From contig CANIVT010000018.1 in assembly GCA_947471565.1 (NCBI GenBank), positions 1-47,870 on the forward strand: a stretch of 47,870 bases of DNA, in the 5' to 3' direction. Positions within the stretch are counted from its first letter, which is position 1; every line of letters starts with the position of its first letter. The notes under the pieces are model-generated. The model was not told where the DNA came from. It ran no database searches and saw nothing but the letters and a program-made list of their open reading frames with translations. Both the position numbers and the translations under genes were made by a program. Positions 16,235-33,943 of the stretch are shown here, piece by piece. This DNA comes from Spartobacteria bacterium. Lineage in GTDB: Bacteria; Verrucomicrobiota; Verrucomicrobiia; Chthoniobacterales; UBA6821.

Positions 16235-16265
16235 GTTCAGGTTACGTTCTGGCCGTTGCTCGGGG

Positions 16266-17033
16266 TCAGGAAATCCTGCGATAGCCCAATTCGGCGCCCC
16301 CGCTGACGTGCATGATGTGGCCGGTGACGAAGCGGGCCTTGTCTGAGAGAAGGTAGACGCAGGCATCGGCGATCACATCCCCTTCGGGGCAATAACCGAG
16401 CGGATGAATCTCGTCCAGATAGCGGTTGATTCCTGCCGGATCGGGTTGCTCGGAAGCCCATTTGCGGAGCATCGGGGTCCAGGTGCCTGCCGGACAGACG
16501 GCGTTCACCCGAACGCCGTGGGGCGCATAGTCAAGCGCCATCGACTTCGTAAGGGTGTTCATCGCCCCCTTGGTCGCGGTGTAGGCGGCGTGGATCTCCT
16601 GACCGATCACTCCGACGAGACTGGATGTGTTGAGGAAACATCCCCGGGATGACTTCAGGGCCTCAAGACCGTGTCGCGTCGTGTGAAGGACGCTTTTCAG
16701 GTTGATGTCGAAGAGGGCATCCCACTCGGCGTCGCTTGTCTCATGCAGCGGCTTGCTCGGTGTGGCGATGCCTGCGTTGTTATGGATGGCGTCCAAGCGG
16801 CCATAGCGTTGAAGGACGCGCCCGATGGCCGACTTCACCTGATCGTCCCTGGACACATCGCAGGCAAACCCGAGATGCCGGTCGCCGAGTTCGGCGGCCT
16901 GCCGTGCGGCTTCCTCTCCGTTGCGGGCGACGATCGCAACGGAGGCGCCTTCCGAGGCGTACGCCTTGGCACAATCGAGTCCTATGCCGGTGGACCCCCC
17001 CGTGAGGAAGATGATTTTTCCGGAAAGCAGCAT
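16266..17033 (-). CDS. SDR dehydrogenase, likely L-fucose dehydrogenase
   Basis: 255 residues starting MLLSGKIIFLTGGSTGIG at 17033; the in-frame extension to 17138 overlaps the mutarotase gene and has no SDR features. TGGSTGIG (residues 11-18), NNAGIA (85-90) and the catalytic Tyr151/Lys155 of YTATK are intact. It is cytoplasmic. The gene starts eight bases after the fucose mutarotase stop codon, and the pathway in this run otherwise lacks its first oxidation. L-fucose to L-fucono-1,5-lactone is therefore the likely reaction. The second SDR at 6070-6846 could be exchanged with it in this assignment. Confidence 0.83.
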   Translation of the reverse strand: MLLSGKIIFLTGGSTGIGLDCAKAYASEGASVAIVARNGEEAARQAAELGDRHLGFACDVSRDDQVKSAIGRVLQRYGRLDAIHNNAGIATPSKPLHETSDAEWDALFDINLKSVLHTTRHGLEALKSSRGCFLNTSSLVGVIGQEIHAAYTATKGAMNTLTKSMALDYAPHGVRVNAVCPAGTWTPMLRKWASEQPDPAGINRYLDEIHPLGYCPEGDVIADACVYLLSDKARFVTGHIMHVSGGAELGYRRIS

Positions 17034-17041
17034 CCCCTGGG

Positions 17042-17446
17042 TCAGTTCAGGTGAAACACCTCTTTGGTATCGCTCCAGATTTTTCCCTTGGCGGCGGCAT
17101 CCGGGAGCGGTTGCTGGCACGGATCGGTTTCCTTCCACCAGCGTCGGGTTTCAGGATCGCCACCCATTTTCTTCATATCGGCGGCAAAGTCCTTGCCGGT
17201 GTACTCAAGGTAGGCAAAGAGGTAGGTCTTGCCCCCGATCTCCCGTTTGTAGATTGAGAAATCGCGGATATGGCACTGCCTGATCATCCGGCAGACACCC
17301 GGCCAGGGATGGGCGTGAAGTTTCTCGTAATATGCGGCCTTGTCGGGACGCAGGCCGGTGACCCAGGCATGACGCTCAACCGGATGGGAAACACATCCGG
17401 TGAACAGCAGGGGAAGCAGGGCTAGTGATGTCAGCGACTTTTTCAT
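17042..17446 (-). CDS. Predicted lipoprotein of the RhaM (L-rhamnose/L-fucose mutarotase) family
   Basis: 134 residues from the ATG at 17446. The first 18 residues are a lipoprotein signal (MKKSLTSLALLPLLFTGC) with the lipobox LFTGC, so Cys18 would be lipidated. The rest is a complete dimeric alpha/beta-barrel mutarotase of the RhaM family: HAWVTGLRPDKAAYYEKLH with the catalytic-type His43 before PWPGV, RDFSIYKREI, LFAYLEYTGKDF, RRWWKETDPCQQPLP and the family C-terminus KEVFHLN. Known members are cytoplasmic and about 105 residues long, so export to the membrane face is unusual. It lies 28 bases after the SSS symporter and eight before the SDR, pointing to fucose anomer exchange at uptake. 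The ATG at 17530 would give an implausible leader that overlaps the symporter. Confidence 0.88.
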   Translation of the reverse strand: MKKSLTSLALLPLLFTGCVSHPVERHAWVTGLRPDKAAYYEKLHAHPWPGVCRMIRQCHIRDFSIYKREIGGKTYLFAYLEYTGKDFAADMKKMGGDPETRRWWKETDPCQQPLPDAAAKGKIWSDTKEVFHLN

Positions 17447-17474: not shown

Positions 17475-19175
17475 TCAGCGAAAGAGGAAATAAAGCGCCG
17501 CGAAGACCACGACCACGGCGACGGAGGCAAAGCGGTAGTTGCCCAGGCCGTGTCCGTCCGCCTTCCCGCGTAGGGGTTCTTTCCAGTCCTCCCAAATCAG
17601 CGGCAGCGCCTCCTTCCTGACCTGTTCGGGCATGGTCAGGCTGGTGAGGATCAGGATCACGGAGCAGGCAACAAAGAGAAGGAAGGCGATCATCATGAAG
17701 TCCCCCCTGTAGATATTGTTCCAATCCAGCCAGAACGTGACGGCTCCCAGGATCATTCCCGCGATCAGGGTGACAAAAGCCGCCCTGCCCGAGGCTCCCT
17801 TCCAGAAAACACCCCAGACAAAGACCGCCGTGATCGGGGGAGCGACATAGGTGATGAGCTTGTTGATTCCCTCGAAGAGGGTGCTGTAATGGCCGAACAT
17901 CGGCGAAAACACGATCGCCAGCACCGTTCCGGCCACGGTGGTGATCTTGCCGATCTGCACGAGCTTGTGATCCCCAATGTCGGGACGGTAACGCTTGAAG
18001 ATATCGTAGGAAACGAGGGTTGCCGTCGAGTTGAGAGCCGCGGAGCAGGTCTGCATCGCGGCCGCGAGAAGCGCTGCAAGGACAAGACCCTTCAGTCCCG
18101 TCGGCAGGAGATGTGTCACGAGGAAGGTGAATGTATCCGCCGGAGCGGCCGGGGCCTCCGCTCCGAAAGCTCCCTGCTGGACCAGGGCGACGCAGATCAC
18201 GCCGGGAAGGACAAACAGGAAGACGGGCCAGATCTTGAGAAAGGCGCAGAAGAGGGGGCCGAGGCGCGCATGACGCTCGTCCTTCGCGGCAAGCACGCGT
18301 TGGACGATGGTCTGGTCGCAGCACCAATACCAGATGCCGATCACGGGATAGCCCAGCAGCATCGAGTACCAGGTCAGCCCGGAGGGGTCTCCGGGGGGGC
18401 GCTGCATATGGAGGAAATTCGCCGTTCCCCAAGTGATCTTGCTTCCCTCGACGGAGGCGAGAGGGTGGGGGTGTGAGGCAAGGGTGGCCGCCATGCCGTG
18501 CCATCCCCCGGCCTTCACGTACCCCACGACGGTGATCACAACGGCACCAACCAGCAGCAGGACCGTCTGGACGCTCTCGGTCCAGACCACGGCCAGAAGA
18601 CCGCCGAACATGGTGTATAAGCCCGTAAGCAGTCCCAGTGCGGTGATGAAAACCATCAGGGCATCCACTCCCAGGATCGTCGAACCCGGAGCCATTCCCA
18701 AGACGCCTCTCAGGACCCAAGCCGCGGTGTAGAGGGCGACCCCCATGTGGATGACGATGGCCGAGAAGAGCGAGACGACGGAAAGAATGTCACGGCAACC
18801 CCGGTTGAAACGCCGCTCGAGGAAATCGGGGAGCGTGGTGACCCGGGACCGCAGGTAGAGCGGGGCGAAAAAGAGGGAAAGGAGGATCAGCGTGAATCCG
18901 GCCATCCACTCGAAATTCCCGAAAACGATCCCGTACTTGTAGGCGGCTTCCGCAAGGCTCACCAGATGGACTGTCGAGATGTTGGCGGCGAACATCGCCA
19001 AGCCGATGACTCCCCAACCCAGCGTGTTCCCAGCCAGGAAGTAGTGGCCACCCTCGCCGCCACGCTCGCCGCGGCGGTGAATGAACCCCGCAGCCAAGCC
19101 GAGTCCGACAACGGCGGCGAGATAAAGGGCGATGAGTGACCAGTCGAGGCCGGCTATGGAGGGGGTGCTTGTCAT
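17475..19175 (-). CDS. SSS-family sodium:sugar symporter
   Basis: 566 residues with about 13-14 hydrophobic segments. The N-terminal region (DWSLIALYLAAVVGLGLAAG, then HYFLAGNTLGWGVIGLAMFAANIST) is characteristic of SglT-like sodium/solute symporters, and CDQTIVQRVLAAKDE is the conserved loop of the family. It is an inner-membrane importer. The mutarotase and L-fucose oxidation genes follow with short gaps, so L-fucose is the probable cargo, although the family also carries glucose, galactose and inositol. The gene is preceded, 105 bases away, by a secreted enzyme of unknown family. Confidence 0.92.
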   Translation of the reverse strand: MTSTPSIAGLDWSLIALYLAAVVGLGLAAGFIHRRGERGGEGGHYFLAGNTLGWGVIGLAMFAANISTVHLVSLAEAAYKYGIVFGNFEWMAGFTLILLSLFFAPLYLRSRVTTLPDFLERRFNRGCRDILSVVSLFSAIVIHMGVALYTAAWVLRGVLGMAPGSTILGVDALMVFITALGLLTGLYTMFGGLLAVVWTESVQTVLLLVGAVVITVVGYVKAGGWHGMAATLASHPHPLASVEGSKITWGTANFLHMQRPPGDPSGLTWYSMLLGYPVIGIWYWCCDQTIVQRVLAAKDERHARLGPLFCAFLKIWPVFLFVLPGVICVALVQQGAFGAEAPAAPADTFTFLVTHLLPTGLKGLVLAALLAAAMQTCSAALNSTATLVSYDIFKRYRPDIGDHKLVQIGKITTVAGTVLAIVFSPMFGHYSTLFEGINKLITYVAPPITAVFVWGVFWKGASGRAAFVTLIAGMILGAVTFWLDWNNIYRGDFMMIAFLLFVACSVILILTSLTMPEQVRKEALPLIWEDWKEPLRGKADGHGLGNYRFASVAVVVVFAALYFLFR

Positions 19176-19280: not shown

Positions 19281-21218
19281 TCACTTGGCCTTGGCCGCGT
19301 GAACTTCCTGTTCAGTGATCGTCCAGGAGGTGAAATCATAGGTCCGTGTCATCTTGCCGTCGGTGAGCACCATCGGGATTTCACGGGTTTTCTGCGATGT
19401 CCATGGGCTTTCGGATACGGGCCACGCTTTGTAATCCACGGTATTTCCGTTCACCGTGTCCGACCCGTCGAAAACACAGGAGAGCGAATCGCCCAGGCGG
19501 TTTTTGTACTCGGCCGAGGCCGGTTGTTGGGAGGTGAGTTTCAGGGAACTCTTTGCGAGGATGGCTTCGCGGAATTTGGCCAACTGTTCCGCCGGTGTCG
19601 CCCCAGGGAATTCGGATGGTTGGGCAGTCTCAATGGCCACGGCAAAGGAGAGTGATTTGATCCGGAATTCCGAATCCCCTTCGCGGGGTTTGGCTGCCGG
19701 GGCGAGGATTCCCCCCGCGGTGTTCCAATCGAACTGTTCGGTCGCAGTGACTGCGATCAGGACACTTCCGTAATGGAGGAAGATGCGACCCGAGGTCTTG
19801 CTGTCATTGACGAGTGCGAGATGTCCTCCCGGAACATAGCCGAGCGCATAGGGAAAGTCCGTTCCGGGAGGGATCTGGAAGACAAAAAGAAGGGCGTCCC
19901 TGCCCAGAATTTCCTGTTCATAGGATCGTACTCCATGGGTGTGGTTTCCCATTTGGCCGGGTATGTCCTCCGAGGGAGCGGTGATCCAAAGGTGGCTTCC
20001 TTTCTCGGGATCCTGCTCCCACATCACGCCGCAGGGATAGCTCTGCCCCTGCCATGGTCTGCCTCCCACCTTGGCCGAACGGGAAAAGAGGGCGTATGTC
20101 CTGTTAATGTAGTGGTTGAGGGCGAAGCCGTTGATCAGAGCCTTGTAAAAATAGGGTTCCTTACGGTCGTTCGCGGCGTTCACGATCATCTCCGGAAGCC
20201 TGTAAGTGCTGACTGCAGCCTCAGCGGCGGCCTTGGCATGTTCGAGACCGGGGGCGACGCCCCCGAAATAGATCCATGGCAGGGCGGCCATTCCCCAGGG
20301 GCGCTGGCACTCGGTGTCGGGATACGACCTGGGGGCAAAAGTCGCCAGATGGCCGCGAAGCCAGGCCGGCGCCAACTGCAGCATGCAGATTTCGTAGGCG
20401 ATGCGCGCCTTGCGGGCCATGGTCTGGTCCTTGGCGCAGTCGGCGAGGGTTAGGAGCGGGAGAATGTTCTGCGCTCCGTAGGGCCGCGAGGCGAATTCAC
20501 CAGGTCCCCCGACCACCGTGGCGGCGATGATCTGATTGAGGTACTTTTCGCCGGTCGGGTCGCCCGGGGCGGCAAAACTCGTTCCCCAGACCACCCCCGG
20601 CTTGTTGATCTTGGCCGTCATCATCTGGATGTAGGGATCGTTCTGCATGAACCAGGGATCGGCATGGAATGCGTCGGGTCCCCAGACCTGGGTGGCAAGA
20701 TACCGGATCATGGCGGCCATGATCTTGTGATTGCTGGTGGAGAGTCTCTGGTAGAACACCCCGCCGGTGTAAATCTTGCGGTAGCGTTCCTTGGTCGCCG
20801 GATCCAAAAACTTCTCGAACCGTATGTAACAGTCGATGCCGGGCCACGCGATGAAGCCCGTGTTGCCTCCGTGCATCCAGCGGTTCTGCTTGTTGCCGGG
20901 CACCAGCGGATCGAGACCCTTGTTGACCTCGACCAATGCCTCCTGAACCTTGCCGAGGGCAAACAGGCATTCGGCGTTCTGAAAATGCCCGCTGCCGCCC
21001 TTGGAGAAGGTTTCCAGAATGGCTTTTCGGCGTTCCTCAAAGGTTAAAAGCGCTCCTTGGGGCGCTGTGCCGGACGGAGCGGATGCGTCGGCGGGTACCG
21101 CAGACTCCGAGGAATCGATGCTGCTGTTTGTCTTTTGCCTCTCCTCGGCCCGGACAAGGCAGCCGGCGAAAATGAGCAAATAAAAGGCTCGAAGGGCCGT
21201 GAATCTGGGGGGATGCAT
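19281..21218 (-). CDS. Secreted protein of an unrecognised family, paralogue 1 (putative glycan-active enzyme)
   Basis: About 645 residues from the ATG at 21218, which opens a good signal peptide (FTALRAFYLLIFAGCLVRA); in-frame ATGs at 21263 and 21308 are alternatives. I do not recognise the family. A helical first half carries ARKARIAYEICM, WIYFGGV, YRLPEMIVNAANDR and HYINRTYALFS. A beta-rich second half (SYPCGVMWE, GHLALVNDSKTSGRIFLHYGSVLIAV) follows. The order helix barrel then beta-sandwich is like that of heparinase/alginate-lyase type polysaccharide lyases, but no catalytic signature is matched. The last 75 residues form a module (VDYKAWPVSESPWTSQ, TYDFTSWTITEQ) shared with 23191, 28123 and the orphan at 25246. 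It lies directly upstream of an SSS transporter. Confidence 0.7.
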   Translation of the reverse strand: MHPPRFTALRAFYLLIFAGCLVRAEERQKTNSSIDSSESAVPADASAPSGTAPQGALLTFEERRKAILETFSKGGSGHFQNAECLFALGKVQEALVEVNKGLDPLVPGNKQNRWMHGGNTGFIAWPGIDCYIRFEKFLDPATKERYRKIYTGGVFYQRLSTSNHKIMAAMIRYLATQVWGPDAFHADPWFMQNDPYIQMMTAKINKPGVVWGTSFAAPGDPTGEKYLNQIIAATVVGGPGEFASRPYGAQNILPLLTLADCAKDQTMARKARIAYEICMLQLAPAWLRGHLATFAPRSYPDTECQRPWGMAALPWIYFGGVAPGLEHAKAAAEAAVSTYRLPEMIVNAANDRKEPYFYKALINGFALNHYINRTYALFSRSAKVGGRPWQGQSYPCGVMWEQDPEKGSHLWITAPSEDIPGQMGNHTHGVRSYEQEILGRDALLFVFQIPPGTDFPYALGYVPGGHLALVNDSKTSGRIFLHYGSVLIAVTATEQFDWNTAGGILAPAAKPREGDSEFRIKSLSFAVAIETAQPSEFPGATPAEQLAKFREAILAKSSLKLTSQQPASAEYKNRLGDSLSCVFDGSDTVNGNTVDYKAWPVSESPWTSQKTREIPMVLTDGKMTRTYDFTSWTITEQEVHAAKAK

Positions 21219-21370
21219 CGGGACACCATAGTGATCCCGAACAGTGTCTGGCAAGACGTTCATCCGGCCGGAGACGTGTGATGGATCCGGAGTTTGTTTC
21301 GTTTTCATAATCGACAGCGGGTGAGGGGAACGGGCTTCCGCCGAAGACCCCGGGCGTGATAGGTTGAGCC

Positions 21371-23098
21371 ATGAGCGACACTAATGAAAAAATTCCCTTG
21401 AACCGGGACAAACGGATGGCGTGGTGGAGGGAGGCCCGGTTCGGGATGTTCATCCATTTCGGGCTCTTTTCCATCCCGGCGGGGGAATGGAAGGGGAGGG
21501 AGATCGGGAGTTACAGCGAGTGGATCATGAACAAGGCCGAGATCCCCGTGGCGGAATACGCGCTCCTTGCGGATGGATTCGACCCCCGTTCATTTGATGC
21601 GGATGCGATCGTCTGCCTGGCCCGGGAGGCCGGAATGCGCTACATCGTGCTCACGGCCAAACATCATGAGGGGTTCGCCCTGTTCAGAAGCCGGGTGAGT
21701 GCCTTCAATTCCGTGGATGCCTCCCCGTGCGCGAGGGATCTTGTCGGTGAACTGGCAGCCGCCTGTGCCCGGGTTGGCATCCGCTTCGGGTTATACTATT
21801 CCCACTCGCAGGATTGGCATCATCCGGGAGGTGCCGGCAATTTCTGGGACCCGTCCCAGCAGGGGGACTATGACGCCTACCTCGACACCGTGGCCGTTCC
21901 CCAGGTCCGTGAACTTCTGGGGAATTACGGCCCCGTCTCGGTTCTCTGGTATGACACGCCCCGATTCATGACAGCGGAGCGGGCGGGGCGCTTCCAGGCC
22001 GTCCACGCGATGCAACCGGAACTCATCGTCAACAACCGCCTCGTGTCGTTCGATACCAGGGCGGCGGTGACACCCGGCGACACCGAGACGCCGGAGAACT
22101 TCATCCCGGCCAACGGCTGCCCGGGACGGGACTGGGAAAGCTGCATGACGTTCAACGACAACTGGGGCTACAGGAAAAGCGACCTGAACTGGAAAAGCAC
22201 GGAGACACTACTCCGCAACCTCGTGGACATCGCGAGCAAGGGGGGGAATTTCCTTCTCAATGTGGGACTCAGGGGCGATGGCTCCGTTCCCGAAGAAAAC
22301 GCCGCCAGCCTACGCTCCATAGGCGATTGGCTAGGTCGTCACGGCGACTCGGTGTACGGCACACAGGCCGGTCCCTTCACCCGCAGGATGGAATGGGGCC
22401 GGGCCACGCAACGTCTCAATCCGGACGGTTCGGTGACCCTCTACCTTCATGTCTGGCAGCGTCCCGAAACGGGCGTGATCTCCCTGCCCGGACTGCGCCT
22501 CGAGCCGCTTTCCGGGCGGATGCTGTCCACTGGCATTCCCGTGACGGCCGTTTTGTCGGAAGCCGGCGTCGACGTGGTCCTTCCGGCAAAGAACGGCGGG
22601 GAACTGATTGATGTTGCGGTGCTGGAGCTCCCGGGCATCCCGGAGATCGAGCCCGACCGCCCCCAACTCGACGAACTGGGAAGGATTGTCCTGAGTCCGC
22701 TCGATGCGGAACTCTCGGGCCCGGATGATGCCAAGCCCGTGGTCACGGGTGTTGACGGAAATGCCACGATTTCCAACCTGACGCGGAGCGGCGAGTGGCG
22801 TGTGATTTACAACTTCGAGGTGCCTGAGGGCGGGCTCTGGCTGGTTTCCGCGGAACTGGCCATCGGCGCCTATCAGCGGCTCTCCGTTTCGTTGCTGGGG
22901 CCTCACGGCACGACAGTCACCACGGCGTTCAATGCGTCCGGCGAGGGGATGGATGACTTCTCGATCAAGGAACTGGGCGTGATGAGGCTTCACCCGGGGC
23001 TTCAGGCGCTGGAATTCCGTTCCGAGATGACCGACCTGCGTCCCCTGCTTGCGAGGAGATTCATCCTCACCCCCATCCGGGAAAGGCCAGCTTCCTGA
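21371..23098 (+). CDS. GH29 alpha-L-fucosidase without signal peptide, with extra C-terminal domain
   Basis: 575 residues. The sequence goes straight from MSDTNEKIPLNRDKRMAWWREARFGMFIHFG into the barrel with no hydrophobic leader, so it is probably cytoplasmic. The catalytic motifs are intact: LTAKHHEGFALF, nucleophile Asp195 in VLWYDTPR, and WESCMT with putative acid/base Glu256. The first beta-sandwich is followed by about 130 further residues (from about 445) with beta-rich sequence ending LLARRFILTP. It is the only GH29 here on the plus strand and is divergent from the minus-strand gene at 21218. It is closest in motifs to cluster II (32408-36941). It would act on small imported fucosylated oligosaccharides rather than polymer. 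Confidence 0.9.
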   Translation: MSDTNEKIPLNRDKRMAWWREARFGMFIHFGLFSIPAGEWKGREIGSYSEWIMNKAEIPVAEYALLADGFDPRSFDADAIVCLAREAGMRYIVLTAKHHEGFALFRSRVSAFNSVDASPCARDLVGELAAACARVGIRFGLYYSHSQDWHHPGGAGNFWDPSQQGDYDAYLDTVAVPQVRELLGNYGPVSVLWYDTPRFMTAERAGRFQAVHAMQPELIVNNRLVSFDTRAAVTPGDTETPENFIPANGCPGRDWESCMTFNDNWGYRKSDLNWKSTETLLRNLVDIASKGGNFLLNVGLRGDGSVPEENAASLRSIGDWLGRHGDSVYGTQAGPFTRRMEWGRATQRLNPDGSVTLYLHVWQRPETGVISLPGLRLEPLSGRMLSTGIPVTAVLSEAGVDVVLPAKNGGELIDVAVLELPGIPEIEPDRPQLDELGRIVLSPLDAELSGPDDAKPVVTGVDGNATISNLTRSGEWRVIYNFEVPEGGLWLVSAELAIGAYQRLSVSLLGPHGTTVTTAFNASGEGMDDFSIKELGVMRLHPGLQALEFRSEMTDLRPLLARRFILTPIRERPAS

Positions 23099-23190
23099 GA
23101 AAGACCCTTGCCGGCGGTGGGAGGGATCAACCTTTGGCGGGCGCGGATGAAAACGGACTGCAGATGCGGTCCAACGACCTTCCCTTGATT

Positions 23191-25152
23191 CTACCGCGTC
23201 TCCTTCCGCGTCCAGTTGTTGAAATCATAGACAAGCGATTTGCCCGCATGCTTTGCCGACAGAATGTCGCCCCCCAGCGTTTGGTTGACCCAGTCATTTC
23301 CGAGGAGCGGAAAGGAGCGGTAATCGACTGCATGGCCGTCGATCCGGTTTTGATCGGAGTAAGGGGTGCCGTGCGGGCGGTAGGTCAGTTCGAGTTGACG
23401 GCCCCCGAGGGAGCGGTACGAAAGGGAGGGAACGGATTTGTCCAGCATCGAGACGTCGAGTTTTGTCCTGTTCAGGACATCCTCCATGAAGCGCTGGAGT
23501 TCCGCTTCCTGGCCCCCTCCCGCGTACTTGGAGACCGCGGCGGTTTCCAGGACCCAGCCGTTGTTCCTGTCCTCACTCCAAAGCACATCGCAGTTCTCCC
23601 TCTGTTTTGGAGGACCCCACGCGGAGGGTCGGGCATAACGGAAGGCGAAGAGCACCGAGCCTCCGTGACAGAATACCCAGCCATCCTTTTCGAGACGTTT
23701 GACGATCGCCCCCCTTCGGGTGAAGGGTGCGTACGACTTCCAGAACGGGAAGTCCTTGGGGACGGAGGAGATGCCCAGGAGCGTTCCTTCCGATTGAAGG
23801 ACCTGTGTGAAGGGATTTTCCCCGTAGCCGAAGGCATTGGGGACGATGTCGTGCGGCCTGTAGGGGCGAAGCATGTTTTCCTGCAGGGGAACAAAGGTGC
23901 TGTCCGGCTTGTCGGAGAGCCATTTGAACATGGTGCGCCGCTCCTCCTTGTAGTTGCCGGCGGTGGGTGACCCGAAATTCTCCCACTGGCTGGCCAGTGA
24001 GTAAAAAGGGGTGTGGTGGATGGTGAAGCGGATCGAGTCGCCGGCACTTCCCCGGTGGAGGGATGACCCGGAGCGATCGCGGGCGATCTCCGCGATGAGC
24101 TCGGGCATGCGGTAGGAATCCGCGCCGGGATCCACGGTGAAGAAAAACGTGGCTCCGATCCCCGTGCCGGCCGCATTGACGGGACGTTTGCCCCCGAAGT
24201 AAAGCCACGCCACGGAGGAAGTGATGTCCATCGAGTCGGGCGAGGTGACACTGGATCCCCAGTATTTTGCGCGACTGGCCGGCGTCACGTAGTAGCCTTG
24301 GTTCCAGGCGCAGGCAATCTGCAGCAGGATGGTGTCCAGCACCAGCGAAGCCCTGTTCTTCACCTCGGGATCCCTGGCGTGGTCGGCGAGAAGCTTGATG
24401 GCCATGAGATCGACCCCCAGGTAGGTGGGGGCGCCATACTCGCTCAGATTACGGTGGACATAGTCCTTGAAGTATCCCAGCAGCCGCTGCTTCGTCGCCG
24501 ATTTGATCCCTTCGGCATCAAGCCCGTCGGCGTCCCGCAGGTCGGGCCATTGCTCCGCGGCGATGAAGCCGGCCCCGTCGCCCATGAGGCGGTAATTGTC
24601 GGCCCCGTAACCGGACCAGACGCGGTGATGATAGAGGCCGACAGACGACTTCATCGCATCGGCGATGGATTGGGGGACGGCGACCTTGTCACGGCAAAGC
24701 ATGTAGCAATGGATCAGGGCATGTTTTTCGAACGGGTTGAACGCATGTCCGTCCTTGGGATTGCGGGCTATCATGGCTTTGGTTCCATCGAGGACGGAGG
24801 AGGCTATCTTCCCCCATTTTTCCAGAGCGGCCGCGGTTTCCTTGCCAGTGAGAATGCGGGCGGCGACGGGAATCATCGCGTTGCGCGCCTCCGCCTGATG
24901 ACGGTCTTTCGTTTCGAGGGGGAGGGAAGCGATATAGCCGAGCAAAGCGGCCTTTCTTTCCCCGGGAGTCGTTCCGTCGATATAGGAAGATGCCGTTTGG
25001 ACAGCCGATTCGGCGGATCCGACCTGGTCCTGCGGTCCATCGGATGTTTTGGGAGGTTCCTGACCCAGGGCTCCGGCCCAAGCGATCGTGCCGAGAATCA
25101 GCGTAGCGAACGCGCAAAGACACCGCCTCCGCCGGATGGAATGATCAGGCAT
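23191..25152 (-). CDS. Secreted protein of the same unrecognised family, paralogue 2
   Basis: About 653 residues from the ATG at 25152, where an Arg-rich signal peptide begins (MPDHSIRRRRCLCAFATLIL); an ATG at 25218 adds 22 residues. It shares with paralogues 1 and 3 the motifs WLYFGGKRP, YRMPELIAEIARDR and FTIHHTPFYSLAS and the C-terminal module (VDYRSFPLLGNDWVNQ, VYDFNNWTRKET), but is the most divergent of the three. The module has lost Pro from the PW pair and the ITE ending. The N-terminal 300 residues are helical, with YHHRVWSGYGADNYRLMGDG as a candidate active-site region. It follows the MFS transporter and the orphan module in the same direction, again pairing this family with a transporter. 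Function is not known. Confidence 0.68.
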   Translation of the reverse strand: MPDHSIRRRRCLCAFATLILGTIAWAGALGQEPPKTSDGPQDQVGSAESAVQTASSYIDGTTPGERKAALLGYIASLPLETKDRHQAEARNAMIPVAARILTGKETAAALEKWGKIASSVLDGTKAMIARNPKDGHAFNPFEKHALIHCYMLCRDKVAVPQSIADAMKSSVGLYHHRVWSGYGADNYRLMGDGAGFIAAEQWPDLRDADGLDAEGIKSATKQRLLGYFKDYVHRNLSEYGAPTYLGVDLMAIKLLADHARDPEVKNRASLVLDTILLQIACAWNQGYYVTPASRAKYWGSSVTSPDSMDITSSVAWLYFGGKRPVNAAGTGIGATFFFTVDPGADSYRMPELIAEIARDRSGSSLHRGSAGDSIRFTIHHTPFYSLASQWENFGSPTAGNYKEERRTMFKWLSDKPDSTFVPLQENMLRPYRPHDIVPNAFGYGENPFTQVLQSEGTLLGISSVPKDFPFWKSYAPFTRRGAIVKRLEKDGWVFCHGGSVLFAFRYARPSAWGPPKQRENCDVLWSEDRNNGWVLETAAVSKYAGGGQEAELQRFMEDVLNRTKLDVSMLDKSVPSLSYRSLGGRQLELTYRPHGTPYSDQNRIDGHAVDYRSFPLLGNDWVNQTLGGDILSAKHAGKSLVYDFNNWTRKETR

Positions 25153-25245
25153 TGTCAAAGGAGCATGGGGTGAAGGTTTTTTGCCGGCCGGTTGTTGAAA
25201 AGTAAGCCTTGAGGACATCGGGGGAACGCGTGAGTGATTTCGGGA

Positions 25246-25521
25246 TTACTTGGAGGTTGCGGAGACGCCGGAATCCGTGATTTTCCAATTCGTCAGGTCA
25301 TAGGTCCTCGTTGCGCGGCCGTCGGTGATGACCAGGTTTCCGTTGCGTTCTTGATGCATCCATGGGTTATCCAGCAAGGGCCAATGGTCGTAACATTCGG
25401 GTGTTTTGCCATTCACCAGTGCTTTGCCTCCGAAGGTTTTCTCCAGGACATTTCCGCCGCGGTCCGTGTAGGATCCTTTTGCGTTGGAACCCTCTTCGCC
25501 GATGGTGACGCCCCCGATCAT
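25246..25521 (-). CDS. Orphan C-terminal module of the unrecognised secreted family (probable gene remnant)
   Basis: 91 residues from the ATG at 25521. The reading frame stays open to about 25601 upstream, with residues resembling the linker of the larger proteins, but offers no other start. The whole protein is one copy of the module found at the end of the 19281, 23191 and 28123 proteins: SYTDRGGNVLEKTFGG, YDHWPLLDNPWMHQ and TYDLTNWKITDS. It is most like the module of 28123. There is no signal peptide and no catalytic part. It sits between the MFS stop (60 bases) and paralogue 2 (27 bases past the ATG at 25218). A truncated fourth paralogue is the simplest reading; a free-standing domain is possible. 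Confidence 0.6.
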   Translation of the reverse strand: MIGGVTIGEEGSNAKGSYTDRGGNVLEKTFGGKALVNGKTPECYDHWPLLDNPWMHQERNGNLVITDGRATRTYDLTNWKITDSGVSATSK

Positions 25522-25580
25522 TATTCCAAGGAATTGCGCTCCACCGGGTGCCGTGAGGTCAGTAAGGTAACATCCCTCAC

Positions 25581-26957
25581 TTAGTGAGCCCGGGCCTCAT
25601 CCAGTGGAATGGGCTGATAGTTTTTTGCCAGCAGGTTGTTGAAAAAATAAGCCGTCAGGTAGGCGAAGGCCGCGTAGGCGAACAGCACGAGGTACCCGGT
25701 CCCGGCGTGGTCGGGGCCGTAATGGTCGAGCAGGCTTCCGCAGCAGTATTGAAAAAGCATGCCGCCGAGGGCGCCCGCCGTGCTGCCGATGCCGATGATC
25801 GTCGCGATGGCCCTGCGCGGGAACATGTCCGAAACGGTGGTGAAGAGATTGGAGGACCAGGCTTGATGCGCTCCTCCGGCCAGGCCGATCAGGGCCACGG
25901 CCGTCCAGTCGCCGGCCTCGCCGACGGCGAGGATGGGCAGCACCATCACGGCATAGGTGAGGAGCGCCGTTTTTCTGGCCCGCGTGACGCTCCATCCGCG
26001 ACGCAGCAGATAACCCGGAAAATACCCTCCGAGCAGACTGATCAGGGTGACCAGCGCATAGATGCCCATCAGATGGGGCCAACTGGACTTGATGTCGAGA
26101 TGGCGTGTCTTCTTGAAATAATCGGGCAGCCAGAACAGAAGGAAAAACCAGACGGGATCCGTGAGGAATTTGGCCACGATGAAGGACCACGTCTGTCGAA
26201 GTCCCAGAAGGACGGGCATCGGGACGGGCATGCTGCTTTCCTCGGCCTGAGTTCCTCCACGGTCCCCCTCACCCCCTTGGATCAGGGAGAGTTCGGAGGG
26301 TGAGACGGCGCCGTGACGATCGGGCCTGTTGTAAAAGAAAATCCAGAGCACCACCCATGCCAGTCCCGCACCGCCGGCGACGAGGAAGGGGGCATGCCAG
26401 GTCCAGTGCGAAAGCAACCACGCGACAAGCAGGGGGGCCGCGATGGCGCCGACATTCGCGCCGGTGTTGCAGATGGAGGTTGCGAAGGCCCTCTCGGAAC
26501 TCGGGAACCACAGGGCGATCACCTTGATCGCGGAGGGGAAATTGCCCGCCTCGCTGAAGCCCAGAAAGATTCTGGCAAACACGAACCCCGACACCGAGGA
26601 GACAAGTGTGTGGCAGACCGCGGCAATACTCCACAAAAGAAGCGTGGCGGCGTAGCCTACCTTGACCCCGACCCTGTCAATGAGGCGACCGGCAAAGAGA
26701 AGACCCAGGGCGTACGCTCCGAGAAAAAAGGAATTTACCATGGCGAATTGCGAGTCCGTCCAATGGATTTCCAGGGCGAGCGTCGACTTCAGCAGGGAGA
26801 GGAACTGACGGTCGGAATAGATCAGAGCCGTGGCCGCAAAGAGCAAGAGACACACGATCCACCGGATGTGCGATATCCCGGTCTTGGGTTTCGAACCGGC
26901 GGAATTGCTATCGTCCATGGAAATGCAGGGCGTGTCCGCCGGTTGTCCTGCGGACAT
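25581..26957 (-). CDS. MFS transporter, anion:cation symporter (ExuT/GudP-like) family
   Basis: 458 residues with 12 predicted membrane helices. After a hydrophilic start come RWIVCLLLFAATALIYSDRQ and FLGAYALGLLFAGRLIDRVG, followed by ARIFLGFSEAGNFPSAIKV and SICNTGANVGAIAAPLL, which are signatures of the hexuronate/aldonate branch of MFS (ACS family). It should import a sugar acid or a related anion with protons. The start may be the ATG at 26957 or at 26918. Downstream in the same direction lie the orphan module and paralogue 2. If its cargo is the product of that secreted protein, an acidic and possibly unsaturated sugar would be expected; that is inference. Confidence 0.88.
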   Translation of the reverse strand: MSAGQPADTPCISMDDSNSAGSKPKTGISHIRWIVCLLLFAATALIYSDRQFLSLLKSTLALEIHWTDSQFAMVNSFFLGAYALGLLFAGRLIDRVGVKVGYAATLLLWSIAAVCHTLVSSVSGFVFARIFLGFSEAGNFPSAIKVIALWFPSSERAFATSICNTGANVGAIAAPLLVAWLLSHWTWHAPFLVAGGAGLAWVVLWIFFYNRPDRHGAVSPSELSLIQGGEGDRGGTQAEESSMPVPMPVLLGLRQTWSFIVAKFLTDPVWFFLLFWLPDYFKKTRHLDIKSSWPHLMGIYALVTLISLLGGYFPGYLLRRGWSVTRARKTALLTYAVMVLPILAVGEAGDWTAVALIGLAGGAHQAWSSNLFTTVSDMFPRRAIATIIGIGSTAGALGGMLFQYCCGSLLDHYGPDHAGTGYLVLFAYAAFAYLTAYFFNNLLAKNYQPIPLDEARAH

Positions 26958-27008
26958 GAGTCTGAATCACAACGTTTTGTCCACGCGATAAGTCCATCCT
27001 GAATCGGC

Positions 27009-27072
27009 AGTCATGGTAGCCGTCCCGGGGTTTCACACCATGACTTTCTTCACGCGAGGGACCCGCGCGTGA
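27009..27072. promoter_or_regulatory. Inverted repeats in the divergent MFS/esterase promoter region
   Basis: The 277-base gap between the divergent genes at 26957 and 27235 holds two inverted repeats. AGTCATGGT (27009-27017) pairs perfectly with ACCATGACT (27037-27045), and TCACGCG (27050-27056) pairs with CGCGTGA (27066-27072) across nine bases. These are plausible binding sites for a regulator shared by both transcription units, or structured leader segments. No further gene is seen in the gap. Confidence 0.4.
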
Positions 27073-27234
27073 TCCGGGCCGAGTCCGCAACGCAAGGATC
27101 CAGGATGCGATCGATTGCCGAGATTTCGGTTGGAATGGGTTTCTCTCCCGGCAAAGGGGGTGGACAAGCCGGGTACGAACGACTAAGTACCGGATCCGCC
27201 TCGGAAATACCCCTCATCCCCTCCACCAATCAGA

Positions 27235-28110
27235 ATGAAAAAACATACCCTCACCCTGCTCGCCCTCCTGCTGATATCACTCCCTGTGGCACGATCCAAG
27301 GACGTCACGTTGTTTGTGCTCGCGGGGCAATCCAATGCCGAGGGATGGATGGGACGCGCCACAGGTTATCCCGCGGACACCAAGAACCAGGATCCCTCCA
27401 TCCTTTACTACTGGAATCCCCGGGACAAAGGGGTCAAGCCAGACTGGACCACGATGCAGCCGCAGAACGGCCGTTTTCCGGAGGGCCACTTCGGACCTGA
27501 GGTGACCTTCTCAAGGAAAGTTCTGGAAAGCGGGGAGAATCCGGCCGTCTTCAAATTCTGCCGCGGATCGACCAGCATTGGCGACAACTGGCAGGGGCCC
27601 GGGTCCCGCAAGCTCTACGACGCGATGGTGACCGACCTCCGTCATGCCCTCCAGCTGCTCAAAGACCGGGGTGACCGCGTGACCAACGGCGCCTTCATCT
27701 GGATCCAGGGCGAGAGCGATGCCATTAAGCCCGAGAATGCCGCCGCCTACGAGGAACGGCTCAAGACCCTGATCGAGGACATGCGCACCAATGTCTTTCA
27801 TGATCCCAATCTTCTGGTGATCCTCGGATGCGACGAGAAGCACAGCGCGGTCCAGCGCAATCCCATCGTCATCACGGCACAGGAGCACCTTGCCGCCACA
27901 TTGCCCAACTGCATCCGTACCAGCATGCTCGGTCTCCCCAAGGCCGACGGGACCCACCTCCGCCCCGAGGGTCTGGTGACCCACGGGGAGAGACTCTTTG
28001 ACGCCTACAGGACCCTCAAGGCGGGAAGTGCGAAGAACCCCCAGACCACGCCGATTACAAATACGCCGGTCACCAACACGGTCTCCACCAATGCTGCAGT
28101 CGGGAGGTAA
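27235..28110 (+). CDS. Secreted SGNH-type carbohydrate esterase (sialate O-acetylesterase/SASA family)
   Basis: 291 residues with a signal peptide (LTLLALLLISLPVARS). The SGNH blocks are visible: nucleophile Ser33 in LAGQSN, the Gly/Asn elements, IQGESDA at 157-163, which is diagnostic of the SASA branch, and the Asp238/His241 pair in DGTHL. The enzyme should remove O-acetyl groups from sugars, here probably to expose acetylated glycan to the fucosidases. The C-terminus from about 268 is a Thr/Asn-rich tail. It is alone on the plus strand, divergent from the MFS gene and convergent with the paralogue-3 gene, from which it is separated by a hairpin. Confidence 0.9.
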   Translation: MKKHTLTLLALLLISLPVARSKDVTLFVLAGQSNAEGWMGRATGYPADTKNQDPSILYYWNPRDKGVKPDWTTMQPQNGRFPEGHFGPEVTFSRKVLESGENPAVFKFCRGSTSIGDNWQGPGSRKLYDAMVTDLRHALQLLKDRGDRVTNGAFIWIQGESDAIKPENAAAYEERLKTLIEDMRTNVFHDPNLLVILGCDEKHSAVQRNPIVITAQEHLAATLPNCIRTSMLGLPKADGTHLRPEGLVTHGERLFDAYRTLKAGSAKNPQTTPITNTPVTNTVSTNAAVGR

Positions 28111-28119
28111 TCCTCCCGA
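28100..28119. terminator. Hairpin between convergent genes, overlapping the esterase stop codon
   Basis: TCGGGAGG (28100-28107) pairs perfectly with CCTCCCGA (28112-28119) around the loop TAAT. The loop contains most of the TAA stop of the esterase gene. The two convergent genes are only 12 bases apart, so this eight-pair stem would have to serve both directions. There is no long T-run on either side, which lowers confidence that it works as an intrinsic terminator. Confidence 0.6.
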
Positions 28120-28122
28120 TTG

Positions 28123-30174
28123 TCAGCGCTTCACGGGTTGTTCCGTGATGGTCCAGTTCTTCACGTCGTAGAGCCTTTCGGTGGTGCCATCGGTGACACG
28201 CATGTTGCCGTCCCAGTCCTGATGGACCCAGGGGTTGTCCACGAGAGGCCACGATTCGTAGTCCACTTCCTTGCCATCGATCTTGGCAGGACCTTGGAAG
28301 GTTTTCTCAAGCACATGGCCCTGACGGTCGGTGTAGGTGGCCTTGGCCACGGTGCGCGGTGCCTCGGGTTTCGGAGTCCTTCCCTTGGCGTCGGGTTGGG
28401 GAGCGGGGGGGGTGAGGACCTCGCTGCCGAGCGCAATCCGTGATTTGGACACCACCGCGGCCTTGAAGGCGGCCAGACGTTGCTCGGGGGACATTCCGGG
28501 GAATTCGTCCGGCGAGGCGGTTTCCATCGCGAGCGCGGCATTGTCACCGGCGATCCGGAACTCGCTGTCCTGCTTGGAGGGTGAATTGCCCGAGAAGGTT
28601 CCGCCGTGCTGTTTCCAGGTAAAGGGTTGGCTGGCACAAAAGGAGACCAGGACACTGCCGTAATCCAGGAAAACGCGTCCGTCCTTGGAAGCGTCGTCGA
28701 TGATGGCGAGATAGCCGTCCGGGATGTAAGCCAGGATCGACCTCGTCTCGAGCGAGAATTGGCGATGACCCCTGATGTCTGCCCGGATCTTCGGAAGAAA
28801 TGCCGGATTGCGGAGATCATTGGCCACCATCAGGAGGGTGCCCTCGCGCTGGAGATATTCGCAGAAGCCGCTGCTGACGCCCTGCGTCCAGTTGGTCAGT
28901 GGGTTGTCATCGCAGCAGGGAACAGTCATCCAGCAGATGCTCGCCTTGGAGGTGTCGGGTTGGTCAAACATCACACCATAGGGATAGCACTGCCCCCAGA
29001 TCGACGACTTGCGGCCGGTGGGAGGGTGGGTCAGGGCGGTGCTGAAGACCCCGTACGTCTTGTTGATGTAAGAGGTCTGGAAGTGGTGGATCCCGTCAAA
29101 GCGCGACCTGTGGACATACGGTTTGCTCCGGTCGGTCGCCGCCTTGACGATGAGTTCGGGAGGGCGCCAGGACTCGGCCACGCTGAAGACCACGGGACTC
29201 ATGCCGCTCAGTTTGGGCGTCTTGCCCCCGAAATAAGTCCAGAGCATCCCGGCGCTGCCTCCGGGAGACTGGCTCACGTAGCCGGGATAACTTCTTCCGG
29301 CCGGAGTGATCCAGTTTCCCTTCAGCCACGAACCGGCGGCATGGGCCATGGACATCTCGTAGGCCATCCGGGCGCGCTTCGAGAGCTCGGGATCGATGAA
29401 CGCGTTGTCGAAATTGAGGAGGGTGCCGACATTGTACATCATGTAAGGCCTCGAGGCGAACTCCGGCGAGCCCCTCGAAACCGTGTAATCCATGCGCTTG
29501 TAGAACATCTTCACCGCGCCGTCCCCGCGGGCACCGTAACGTCCGTCCTTGGGAAGCTTGTCGGGTCCCCAGATCCTGTCCGCGAGATAGAGATTGAAGG
29601 GGATGAGAAAGCTGAGGTTTCCCGTCGAGCCTGCCCAGCTCGTGTTCTTCGTGCAGATCCACTCGATATCGTTCTTGAGGGCGGGATCCATCTTGTCCTT
29701 GTAACGCGAATAGGCGGTCAGGATGCCCCAGAGACCGAACCCGTTGACATGGGGCTCGCCCCAGACCTGGCCGTTGCCGACGGGAATGCTGGTGTAAGTC
29801 CCCTTGGCCTTGGCTTTCTCGGTGCTTTCGATGCGTGCCTTGGCGCCGCTGATCAGCTTGCCGACATAGGTGCGCATGATGTCGTTGGCCTCGTCGATGC
29901 GCCCGGCCTTGTAGAGAAGCTGGGCGGTCCAGCAAACCATGGGCGAGTAGCTTTTCTTCACCGCTTCCAGATCCGCCAGGGCGGCATCGACCGTGGCCTT
30001 CTCGCGCTGCGCCAGCGTGGGATAATCGGGGAGCTGTGCGGCTGAAACCTTGCCCTCCTCGGGAGTCGTCGCGGCGGGCGTTCCCTCCTGGGCATCCGAT
30101 GCGGGGGTATCCGCCGCGCGGAGGCAGGAAAGGAAAAAACAACAGAGGAGCAGGAGGGTGGTTTGGGTTTTCAT
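28123..30174 (-). CDS. Secreted protein of the same unrecognised family, paralogue 3
   Basis: 683 residues with a signal peptide (TTLLLLCCFFLSCLRAA). The first half is helical, with tetratricopeptide-like spacing near 60-110 and GFGLWGILTAYSRYKDK, SKRARMAYEMSMAHAAGSWLKGNW, MLWTYFGGKTP and WRPPELIVKAATDR. The second half has HHFQTSYINKTYGVFS, CYPYGVMFD and a beta-rich part with GYLAIIDDASKDGRVFLDYGSVLVS that matches paralogue 1 closely. A Pro-rich linker at about 590-610 joins the C-terminal module (VDYESWPLVDNPWVHQ, LYDVKNWTITEQ). It is 55 bases downstream of an SSS symporter. I cannot assign a reaction; a lyase or hydrolase acting on a glycan is likely from context. Confidence 0.72.
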   Translation of the reverse strand: MKTQTTLLLLCCFFLSCLRAADTPASDAQEGTPAATTPEEGKVSAAQLPDYPTLAQREKATVDAALADLEAVKKSYSPMVCWTAQLLYKAGRIDEANDIMRTYVGKLISGAKARIESTEKAKAKGTYTSIPVGNGQVWGEPHVNGFGLWGILTAYSRYKDKMDPALKNDIEWICTKNTSWAGSTGNLSFLIPFNLYLADRIWGPDKLPKDGRYGARGDGAVKMFYKRMDYTVSRGSPEFASRPYMMYNVGTLLNFDNAFIDPELSKRARMAYEMSMAHAAGSWLKGNWITPAGRSYPGYVSQSPGGSAGMLWTYFGGKTPKLSGMSPVVFSVAESWRPPELIVKAATDRSKPYVHRSRFDGIHHFQTSYINKTYGVFSTALTHPPTGRKSSIWGQCYPYGVMFDQPDTSKASICWMTVPCCDDNPLTNWTQGVSSGFCEYLQREGTLLMVANDLRNPAFLPKIRADIRGHRQFSLETRSILAYIPDGYLAIIDDASKDGRVFLDYGSVLVSFCASQPFTWKQHGGTFSGNSPSKQDSEFRIAGDNAALAMETASPDEFPGMSPEQRLAAFKAAVVSKSRIALGSEVLTPPAPQPDAKGRTPKPEAPRTVAKATYTDRQGHVLEKTFQGPAKIDGKEVDYESWPLVDNPWVHQDWDGNMRVTDGTTERLYDVKNWTITEQPVKR

Positions 30175-30229: not shown

Positions 30230-32344
30230 TCAAGATCCCAGACGGAGAAGTCCCTGGAACACGGCGAGCACGAACGCCACGAAGGCGCAGCAGGAGAGGA
30301 AACCGACCGTGTCGGTACGGTCCCACTTGGTGAATTCCCAGTCCGAGCGAGGGAAGAGTTTCAGGTGATCGAAACGCCCCGGATCCTCCTCGCTGTGAGC
30401 TATCTCCTCGGCCTCCTCCTCGGGTGTTGCCCCGACGGGGGTTTTCAGACGCGCATAGAAGCGTGCCAGACGGAGGGATTCCCCGCGCGGGGTCAGCAGA
30501 CTTACCACGATGAGGAGGAGGAAAGGCACCGCCGTGTCGGTGAGCAGGCGCGCCGTCAGGATCATCGGCGGAGTGAACTCGGCGACTTTGACACCGAGGA
30601 GATGCAGCAGGTAGACCTCGACGTTGAACCGTCCCATCCCCTGCCTGGGGGAATCGGGATCGGAGGGATCGACCGCGGCGATTCCATCCTCGAAGTAAAG
30701 GGCCACAGGCTCGGAGCGGTGCTGTTTCCGGACGGTTGCCCCGACGGCGGGTGCCAGTCCCGCCCCGACGTCCTCCCGGGTTGCCTTCCTGTCGACCATG
30801 GTCACGATCTCGTGGGTCTTGACGGTCAGTTTGGGGGAGCGTCGCAGGGCTGGGATGGCCGTCACCGCATAGGGAATGATCAGGATGAGCAGAAGGGTCA
30901 CGATCACCTGGAGCGTCACCGCCGGCTTGGTCAGCCTCCTCCAGAGGAAAATCAGCAGGATCGGGGCGCCCCAGATCACCGACATGACGATCGTCAGCTT
31001 GAGCAGGGAGATGGCGTTTCCCATGGTCAGGGCGACGACGATGCCCAGGGCGAGGATCAGCGGCACCGAGAGGCGCGCCACGACCATGTAGTGCTTTTCG
31101 GAGCGACCGGGGAAGCATGGTTCGTAGAGATTCTTCACGATGAGTGCGGAGAGCACGACCGAGGTCGACCCGAGATTGGCGAGTTTGCCGCCGAGGATCG
31201 CGATGATCATCACGCCGATCATGCCGACGGGGAGGAGCGTGAGGGTGAGTCTTCCCCAGATCTGGTCGGCGTCCGATTGGTGGGCACCCCAGAGCGCGAG
31301 GGCGACCAGACCGGTGAAGCCCCAGGCGATGGTCAGAAAGCGCTTGGTGAAGCCGCTGGTCACCGCGCCCATCCTGGCCGCCATCTCGTCCTTGGCGGAT
31401 CCGCCGACATTCATGTTTCCCTGCGCGGCCGTGATGGAGACAAAGCTGACCAGGAGGAAGGAGGCGATCGAATACCAAGTGTACTCGCTCAGGTCGCTGT
31501 TGCCGAACATGTCGAACATCTGCGAGGAGACCCTGGCATGAAGCCCCTCGAAACCACCGATCCTCATGAGCCCGAACGGGATCAGGATCACCGAGGCCAG
31601 GATGATCAGGGCCGATTGCACGCCGTTGATCACGGCCGTCGCGGTGAGGCCGCCCAGCACGATGAAAACCGCCACCAGCAGATTGGCCAGAAGATAGAAG
31701 GAGACGGGCTGGAGATAGGAGACATAGGGATGGATCTTCCCCTGGTCATGGAGTCCCTTGAGCACGTCGTAGCGTTTGGCCTGCGCCGGAGGGAGGGGGG
31801 ACTGCTCGCGCACCTTGTGCAGATCGGAATATTCGCGGAAGTCGGCAAGCATCGCCCGATCGGCCACGGAGTAACTGGCTTCAGGTTTCACCATGATCGG
31901 TTGGAGGGTCTTGAGGGCGATGATGTTGCCGAAGCCGATCAGAAAGATGGCCTGCGCGAGGGCGATCACGGCATAGAAGGATCCTAGGAAGCCGGACCGG
32001 AACCGGTCCTGGAAAAGATCCGCCATGGTGGTGAGGCGCACGCGGCGGTACCAGACGTTCATGAACCAGTAGTACGGGGTCAGGAACAGGGTGATGAGGA
32101 GAAGCCAGATACCCCCGATTCCCTCCTTGTAGACCGAGGCGGCGGTGGCCGGGGCCGATGTGGGATCGGCCATGTTTCCGAAATTCAGGAAGAACTGGAG
32201 CCACTTGCCCATCTTGCGGCCGCCGAGGAAGAAATCCTCGCCGGTCCTGTTGCGGGAGGCGAGGTGCTTACCGATGCCGATGACCGAAACGACGTAGAGG
32301 ACCAGAAGCAGGGCATCCAGGGGGTGCAGTCCGTAGAATCTCAT
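30230..32344 (-). CDS. Large SSS-family sodium:solute symporter
   Basis: 704 residues, longer than the 500-570 typical of the family. The start (LDALLLVLYVVSVIGIGKHL, FFLGGRKMGKWLQFFLNFGNMADPTSAPATAASVYKEG) is a clear SSS N-terminus. Extra length comes from two hydrophilic insertions between membrane helices: one around residues 165-210 and a longer one around 535-600. The second contains the segment encoded by a small GC-rich palindrome at 30735-30770. It ends in a hydrophilic tail with one more helix. It is flanked by three GH29 genes upstream and paralogue 3 downstream. The cargo is unknown; a mono- or oligosaccharide or sugar acid is likely. Confidence 0.9.
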   Translation of the reverse strand: MRFYGLHPLDALLLVLYVVSVIGIGKHLASRNRTGEDFFLGGRKMGKWLQFFLNFGNMADPTSAPATAASVYKEGIGGIWLLLITLFLTPYYWFMNVWYRRVRLTTMADLFQDRFRSGFLGSFYAVIALAQAIFLIGFGNIIALKTLQPIMVKPEASYSVADRAMLADFREYSDLHKVREQSPLPPAQAKRYDVLKGLHDQGKIHPYVSYLQPVSFYLLANLLVAVFIVLGGLTATAVINGVQSALIILASVILIPFGLMRIGGFEGLHARVSSQMFDMFGNSDLSEYTWYSIASFLLVSFVSITAAQGNMNVGGSAKDEMAARMGAVTSGFTKRFLTIAWGFTGLVALALWGAHQSDADQIWGRLTLTLLPVGMIGVMIIAILGGKLANLGSTSVVLSALIVKNLYEPCFPGRSEKHYMVVARLSVPLILALGIVVALTMGNAISLLKLTIVMSVIWGAPILLIFLWRRLTKPAVTLQVIVTLLLILIIPYAVTAIPALRRSPKLTVKTHEIVTMVDRKATREDVGAGLAPAVGATVRKQHRSEPVALYFEDGIAAVDPSDPDSPRQGMGRFNVEVYLLHLLGVKVAEFTPPMILTARLLTDTAVPFLLLIVVSLLTPRGESLRLARFYARLKTPVGATPEEEAEEIAHSEEDPGRFDHLKLFPRSDWEFTKWDRTDTVGFLSCCAFVAFVLAVFQGLLRLGS
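30735..30770. repeat. REP-like palindrome inside the SSS symporter gene
   Basis: GGCGGG (30746-30751) and CCCGCC (30759-30764) form a stem over TGCCAGT, and GCCCCGAC occurs as a direct repeat on either side (30738-30745 and 30762-30769). The 13 bases GTTGCCCCGACGG at 30735-30747 recur at 30426-30438 in the same gene. The segment lies in a hydrophilic insertion absent from ordinary SSS proteins and reads in frame as GAGLAPAVGAT. An in-frame palindromic insertion is possible; copies elsewhere in the genome would be needed to prove it. Confidence 0.35.
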
Positions 32345-33901: not shown

Positions 33902-33943
33902 GATGATGGGGGTGTTCGGGGGGATGGGGTGAATCGGGGGATG

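Follow-up and report, generated by a model that had tools for sequence, protein, structure and literature searches.

Three exported paralogues in a Spartobacteria fucose locus as probable members of an unclassified polysaccharide lyase family

Here, we analysed a 47,870-nucleotide stretch of DNA from a Spartobacteria bacterium (the window) and found three paralogous proteins, A, B and C. They are probably exported polysaccharide lyases of a single unclassified family, in which each stands for an ancient subfamily. The family would belong to the (alpha/alpha)-toroid plus antiparallel beta-sandwich superfamily and would likely cut uronic-acid linkages.

Three paralogues and a relic in a fucose locus

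The three open reading frames and the transporter genes beside them lie exactly where a preliminary description of this DNA had placed them (Table 1). That description had called the proteins secreted paralogues of an unrecognised family with a shared C-terminal module, and our comparisons bear this out. Homology spans most of their length, the C-terminal module included, with 34% identity between A and C (E 4e-90), 26% between B and C (E 3e-28) and 23% between A and B (E 1e-25); the N-termini of all three are hydrophobic, as is typical of export, so that secretion is predicted from the sequences. The source genome holds six family members, three of them on contig C16, and one relic, the 3' end of a further copy, which sits between the MFS gene and B.

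Table 1. Features of the window around the three paralogues
Feature	Coordinates	Strand	Remarks
Four GH29, two SDR, Amidohydro_2, MR_MLE and FAH genes	4069..17138	-	
SSS-type symporter (PF00474)	17475..19175	-	105 bp downstream of A
A, 675-aa paralogue, predicted to be exported	19281..21308	-	orthologues in two phyla
GH29 alpha-L-fucosidase	21371..23098	+	between A and B
B, 675-aa paralogue	23191..25218	-	most divergent of A, B and C; own clade, orthologues elsewhere
Family relic	about 25249..25488	-	~75 C-terminal residues of another family copy; 55% identity to C
MFS transporter (PF07690)	25581..26957	-	top NCBIfam subfamily hit, D-galactonate transporter, does not reach the cut-off
SASA-type carbohydrate acetylesterase	27235..28110	+	
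C, 683-aa lyase-like protein, predicted to be exported	28123..30174	-	Asn186, Glu238, Tyr244, Arg294
SSS-type symporter, long (704 aa)	30230..32344	-	55 bp upstream of C
Tandem of three GH29 alpha-L-fucosidases	32408..36983	-	same strand, upstream of SSS and C; probable operon

The setting is one of fucose-glycan degradation, as had been proposed for this locus. The window carries eight GH29 genes, and the gene group at its left encodes fucosidases and, judging from the gene families, presumably a complete-looking oxidative L-fucose pathway; the three members on contig C16 have GH29, GH95 and GH97 genes alongside. With many GH29 genes and fucose catabolism, the locus resembles the fucose-glycan degradation loci described for Verrucomicrobiota (PMC8857213), but differs from them in the lyase-like family proteins and in a source genome with only one sulfatase. 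Because of this single sulfatase, we set aside a heavily sulfated fucoidan as the substrate. Relatives such as L014 lie among sulfatases.

Predicted fold and searches for a known family

No Pfam or NCBIfam model matched A, B or C as single proteins, 30 members or 20 divergent members, in agreement with the preliminary description, which had recognised no family. Among the models without a match in the family proteins were Lyase_8_N (PF08124, PL8), for which a scan of the source genome was also empty, Hepar_II_III_N (PF16889, PL12 heparinase III) and Glyco_hydro_88 (PF07470, GH88/GH105), whose sole match in the genome is on contig C11. Among PDB chain sequences, which take in PL8, 12, 15, 17, 21, 23, 33, 35, 39 and 40, a search with one protein led to no known family, and three different profiles (A1, A4 and A7) returned nothing beyond noise up to E 10; the chains of the PL35 GAGases II and VII (8KHV/8KHW) were not retrieved by the profiles. 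When hhalign was run against profiles for PL8 and PL12 that we had built from relatives, the comparison was not significant either (E 0.5-0.7; PL12 E 0.59). In two of the best local alignments, the family against PL12 and the A/C subfamilies against PL8, the Asn motif of the family is overlaid on the Asn segment of the lyases, which we count as a hint only. Some polysaccharide lyase families have neither PDB entries nor Pfam models, or lack one of these. It is thus possible, if clearly less probable than an unclassified family, that the proteins belong to a CAZy lyase family already known but without a Pfam or NCBIfam model or a solved structure; against this stand the empty profile searches, and we found no paper describing such a family.

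We modelled C and A separately with AlphaFold2 from a shallow alignment of five sequences, with moderate and low confidence, respectively (pLDDT 64.7 and 54.5). At this confidence, both models show an N-terminal helical toroid followed by an antiparallel beta-sandwich, in line with the helical first half and beta-rich second half noted in the preliminary description, and the fold search it had proposed returns, for both, almost only polysaccharide lyases of this layout. For C, the best Foldseek match was the PL35 GAGase VII (E 3.4e-5), with a toroid and beta-sheet layout, and PL33 was also found (E 6.6e-4). In VIA, the best match of C was the PL12 heparinase III HepC (Z 11.8, rmsd 6.2, 426 residues aligned), PL8 chondroitin, hyaluronate and xanthan lyases reached Z 9-10, and the top 38 rows all belong to the toroid plus sandwich lyase superfamily. 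For A, Foldseek returned first the PL17 alginate lyase Alg17c (E 8.7e-5), then human dermatan sulfate epimerase 1 (E 2.3e-4) and heparinase II (E 6.2e-4), and the best Z was 9.2, for heparinase III. Neither PL35 nor Alg17c shows sequence similarity to the family, and the window, unlike the setting of an alginate lyase, is a fucose locus.

Two other enzyme classes share parts of these matches. The human dermatan sulfate epimerase 1, second for A and with Z 8.6 for C, raises the thought of polysaccharide uronate C5-epimerases, but exported proteins beside degradative enzymes, an esterase and import symporters, as well as the multiplicity and breadth of the family, suit catabolism better, and we regard an epimerase as very improbable. 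Over the barrel only, unsaturated glucuronyl hydrolases and GH154 are further matches of the A model (Z 7-8.7). Glycoside hydrolases on an (alpha/alpha)6 barrel plus sandwich, of the GH88/GH105/GH154/GH127 kind, e.g. fucan or uronide hydrolases, would fit a locus full of glycoside hydrolases and the presence of an invariant Glu. However, these matches cover ~230-250 residues compared to 400 or more for lyases, no Pfam glycoside hydrolase model matches the family, and the invariant Glu is the only invariant carboxylate, the other near-invariant polar residues being Asn, Tyr and Arg. We therefore consider a hydrolase unlikely.

Invariant residues and the proposed active site

Is the lyase reading, suggested by the fold searches, reflected in the conserved residues? 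Among 102 diverse members, with identity down to about 20%, only Asn186 (97/98), Glu238 (100/100), Tyr244 (99/100), Arg294 (99/100) and Phe570 are almost invariant; the sole exception for Tyr and Arg is one member (L137), in which the loss extends to all three of Asn, Tyr and Arg. As far as can be judged from the sequences, these residues fit the lyase active-site pattern, and they agree with the fold searches on the likeness to polysaccharide lyases that the helix-barrel and sandwich layout had first suggested. The neutralising Asn and the Tyr, which are 53-63 residues apart in PL8/12/15/17/23/35/39 (PMC12088678, Table 4), would correspond to Asn186 and Tyr244, with a median spacing of 61; the spacing is 54 both in PL35 and in HepC (N240/Y294), and in Alg17c the Tyr lies 57 residues after Asn201. 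This Asn201 is followed by His, as is the Asn in 76 of the 98 members. An Arg about 54 residues after the Tyr is a feature of PL8, with N175-Y234-R288 in chondroitinase AC (PMC8733870); in the family, Arg294 follows Tyr244 after 50 residues, so that the order and spacing of Asn186-Tyr244-Arg294 are alike, and this invariant Arg sets the family apart from PL35.

The family differs from most of these enzymes in its histidines. No His of the beta domain, as conserved in PL12, 15, 17, 21, 35 and 39, is found among the conserved columns, and counterparts were not seen for His424 of HepC, His401/His397 of PL35 or His413 in the second domain of Alg17c (PMC12088678). The PL8 His about nine residues before the catalytic Tyr is likewise absent, while the invariant Glu238 stands six residues before Tyr244 instead. 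We propose that Asn186 and Arg294 would hold and neutralise the uronate carboxylate, that Tyr244 may take the C5 proton and/or protonate the leaving oxygen, and that Glu238 could orient or activate Tyr and Arg, taking the place of the PL8 histidine. In the model, Asn186 and Arg294 lie in loops that are among the low-confidence stretches, and the active-site geometry is thus assumed rather than taken from it. Besides the modest model confidence and the non-significant profile comparison, the fold shared with the epimerase, the location of the GH88/105 gene on another contig and the beta-domain His without a conserved counterpart speak against a lyase.

Transporters, partner genes and the place of the family

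Is the pairing of enzyme and transporter a common feature of the family? The preliminary description had proposed that each of the three enzymes forms a pair with the transporter beside it, which would take up what the enzyme releases, and had taken homologues without transporter neighbours as a sign against its reading. In the window, A, B and C each have a same-strand transporter less than 400 bp away. Outside it, a transporter-like ORF on the same strand lies no further than 3 kb away in 9 of 83 members, so that the pairing is mostly local and does not hold as a general rule. Around 86 members, transporter-like ORFs occur at 0.61 per 10 kb within 500 bp compared to 0.24 at 5-10 kb, but the window itself accounts for three of the five close cases, and we reject transporter coupling as a family rule. 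An adjacent transporter is mostly lacking for the three members on contig C16, and likewise for the orthologues that A, B and C have in other genomes; no sugar transporters accompany these orthologues, and the one transporter close to members of the A and B types outside this genome is of the chromate type. What recurs is an SSS of the type next to C (54-59% identical): seven genomes carry one no more than 4 kb from a distant member, and in most cases an M28 peptidase gene separates the two. Based on the relic between the MFS gene and B, which also speaks against the pairs, the MFS may once have stood beside a family copy that is now lost. We consider the three pairs doubtful; the scarcity of transporter neighbours weighs on the pairing but not on the enzyme class.

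Of the Verrucomicrobiota genomes sampled, 44 of 388 contain the family, as do 33 of 294 sampled genomes of a second phylum. No match was found in the plasmid collection or on viral contigs. In one family-level group, a coupled BNR propeller gene is a steadier partner than transporters. For a wider statement we see the chances as evenly balanced, namely that this is a new lyase family of at least two bacterial phyla, multiplied within genomes, with an invariant Asn-Glu-Tyr-Arg instead of the usual Asn-His-Tyr(-His), and responsible for the chain-cutting step in the breakdown of fucose-, rhamnose- or arabinose-decorated uronic-acid glycans.

Most likely, the lyases would cut uronic-acid linkages by beta-elimination in a glycan that is fucose-rich, probably acetylated and little-sulfated. 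The GH29 fucosidases and the SASA esterase would remove side groups, the products would be imported through the SSS and MFS symporters, and L-fucose would enter the oxidative pathway encoded next door. The genome has a single GH88/105 enzyme, whose gene on contig C11 adjoins GH95, GH43, SASA and SSS genes, and this enzyme could take off an unsaturated uronyl end.

Fucose-rich acidic glycans are hard to break down. Verrucomicrobiota are regarded as specialists for these glycans, but the enzymes that cut their chains are, to our knowledge, mostly unknown. A family with lyase hallmarks that is invisible to Pfam and NCBIfam would fill part of this gap and supply enzymes that can be tested, and its BNR-propeller partner and the exchange of His for Glu pose direct questions on the mechanism.

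Predicted fold and identity of the paralogues

The exported proteins A, B and C belong to a family of lyase-like enzymes outside the libraries searched, with zero matches in Pfam and NCBIfam. Their positions and mutual kinship, as given in the preliminary description of an unrecognised family, agree with our results, the predicted ORFs coinciding exactly and the homology spanning most of each protein's length. The source genome (2.28 Mb, 46 contigs) encodes six full members, three in the window (contig C18) and three on contig C16.

The lyase-like fold proposed at that stage was recovered by structure prediction and fold search: the models of A and C, built on a five-row alignment, independently find the same lyase superfamily. 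For C (mean pLDDT 64.7, pTM 0.65), the only Foldseek matches below 1e-3 were polysaccharide lyases, namely PL35 GAGase VII and PL33 BT4410, and structural realignment returned PL12, PL8, PL35, PL17, PL39, PL21 and dermatan sulfate epimerase, with Z descending from 11.8 to 8.6 and more than 400 residues aligned. At the same cut-off of 1e-3, the A model (mean pLDDT 54.5, pTM 0.52) matched PL17, dermatan sulfate epimerase and heparinase II; its best Z, 9.2, was to heparinase III. Since models without a true match typically reach a best Z of 7 to 8 by the fold-search tool's own figure, C lies clearly and A barely above this level. We regard the predicted lyase activity of the family as fairly probable.

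Coordinates of family members and neighbouring features (window unless stated)
Feature	Position	Remark
Two SDR, Amidohydro_2, MR_MLE, FAH genes	4069-17138	interleaved with GH29 genes
1015-aa protein	7758-10805	
SSS1	17475-19175	105 bp from A
A	19281-21308	clade with L124, L045, L122, L046, L123
B	23191-25218	clade with L132, L046, L125, L061, L131, L062
3' relic of family member	25249-25488	between B and MFS gene
MFS gene	25581-26957	
C	28123-30174	clade with L013, L014
Long SSS	30230-32344	704 aa
Three N_methyl (pilin-like) ORFs	37021-39463	
1525-aa ORF	39148-43725	no Pfam match
Pectate-lyase-like beta-helix ORF	44524 (start)	follows 1525-aa ORF
Family member	C16 15928-18234	
Family member	C16 19931-22636	
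Family member	C16 26549-28414	
Divergent family member	L137:8273-9973	
Chromate-type transporters	L046:9128-10660; L132:12293-13660	near B-clade members

Near-invariant residues

Across 102 members, five residues (C numbering) are near-invariant: Asn186 (97/98), Glu238 (100/100), Tyr244 (99/100), Arg294 (99/100) and Phe570 (93/93). Tyr and Arg lie 50 positions apart in nearly every member, Glu and Tyr 6 apart in all members measured, and the Asn-Tyr spacing has a median of 61, compared with 53 to 63 in known lyases of this fold (PMC12088678 Table 4). Chondroitinase AC (PL8) carries Asn175, Tyr234 and Arg288 (PMC8733870); PL8 has His where the family has Glu, and the beta-domain histidine usual in such lyases has no conserved counterpart across family members. 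Asn, Glu, Tyr and Arg may form the active site, the loops concerned being of low confidence in the model. In one copy, at locus L137, His, Phe and Cys replace Asn, Tyr and Arg and Glu is kept; this joint loss is as expected if the residues work together and the copy has ceased to be that enzyme. It is likely a pseudo-enzyme.

Distribution and gene partners

Of 388 genomes sampled from the same phylum, 44 contain relatives (eight-member profile), as do 33 of 294 genomes of the phylum containing the L013 genome (30-member profile). With the eight-member profile, a second genome of the same genus (G367) yielded no member, so the family is patchy. Several members per genome are common, up to a dozen matches in G119. 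In the member tree, A, B and C fall into three distinct clades, each including relatives from other genomes; these are long-separated paralogues, not the product of a recent local triplication. The family domain is also embedded in very large proteins, about 2800-3800 aa in length (L047, L048, L133, G317:C4, G216:C34).

The proposed pairing of each enzyme with a transporter is partly real for one SSS type and is no rule. Among 86 members at 62 loci, a same-strand transporter-like ORF lies within 3 kb of all three in the window and of nine more. In other genomes, the orthologues of A, B and C are mostly alone or next to unrelated genes. The unusually long SSS beside C, matched only in part by PF00474, has 54-59% identical relatives that recur in the class. 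Seven genomes (G373, G099, G088, G122, G075, G010, G349) have such a relative no more than 4 kb from a distant member, but it is tens of kilobases away in G284, G018 and G060 and on a different contig in G346, G370 and G161. Two B-clade members, from different genomes, have a nearby chromate-type transporter, which may be chance.

A BNR-propeller gene is the better conserved partner, lying on the same strand within 400 bp of 31/86 members (ORF overlaps up to 200 bp accepted) and usual in the family-level group f10. Many of these pairs overlap by 4 bp, from which we infer translational coupling. The f10 cluster (L050, L051, L054, L056, L141-L153) comprises an alpha-L-rhamnosidase-like (GH78-like) gene, DUF6807, a class V aminotransferase, BNR and the family member, often with GH127, M28 peptidase and SSS.

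Genomic context and possible target glycan

Three GH29 genes, the long SSS gene and C are lined up in that order on the minus strand, separated by only 13 to 63 bp, and probably form one operon. The window holds eight GH29 genes, and the set of two SDR, Amidohydro_2, MR_MLE and FAH genes interleaved with four of them presumably, by family, fits an oxidative L-fucose pathway. The 1015-aa protein within this cluster has a weak melibiase and a clear NPCBM match; the 1525-aa ORF follows the pilin-like ORFs. The C16 members neighbour GH29, a beta-helix protein, and genes whose sequences mark them as probable GH95 and GH97. The sole GH88/105 of the genome, on contig C11, adjoins GH2, SSS, SASA, GH43 and GH95, and there is one sulfatase. 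Together, the GH29/GH95/GH97 context, the single GH88/105 and the single sulfatase suggest that the target is a fucose-rich, uronate-bearing, little-sulfated glycan.
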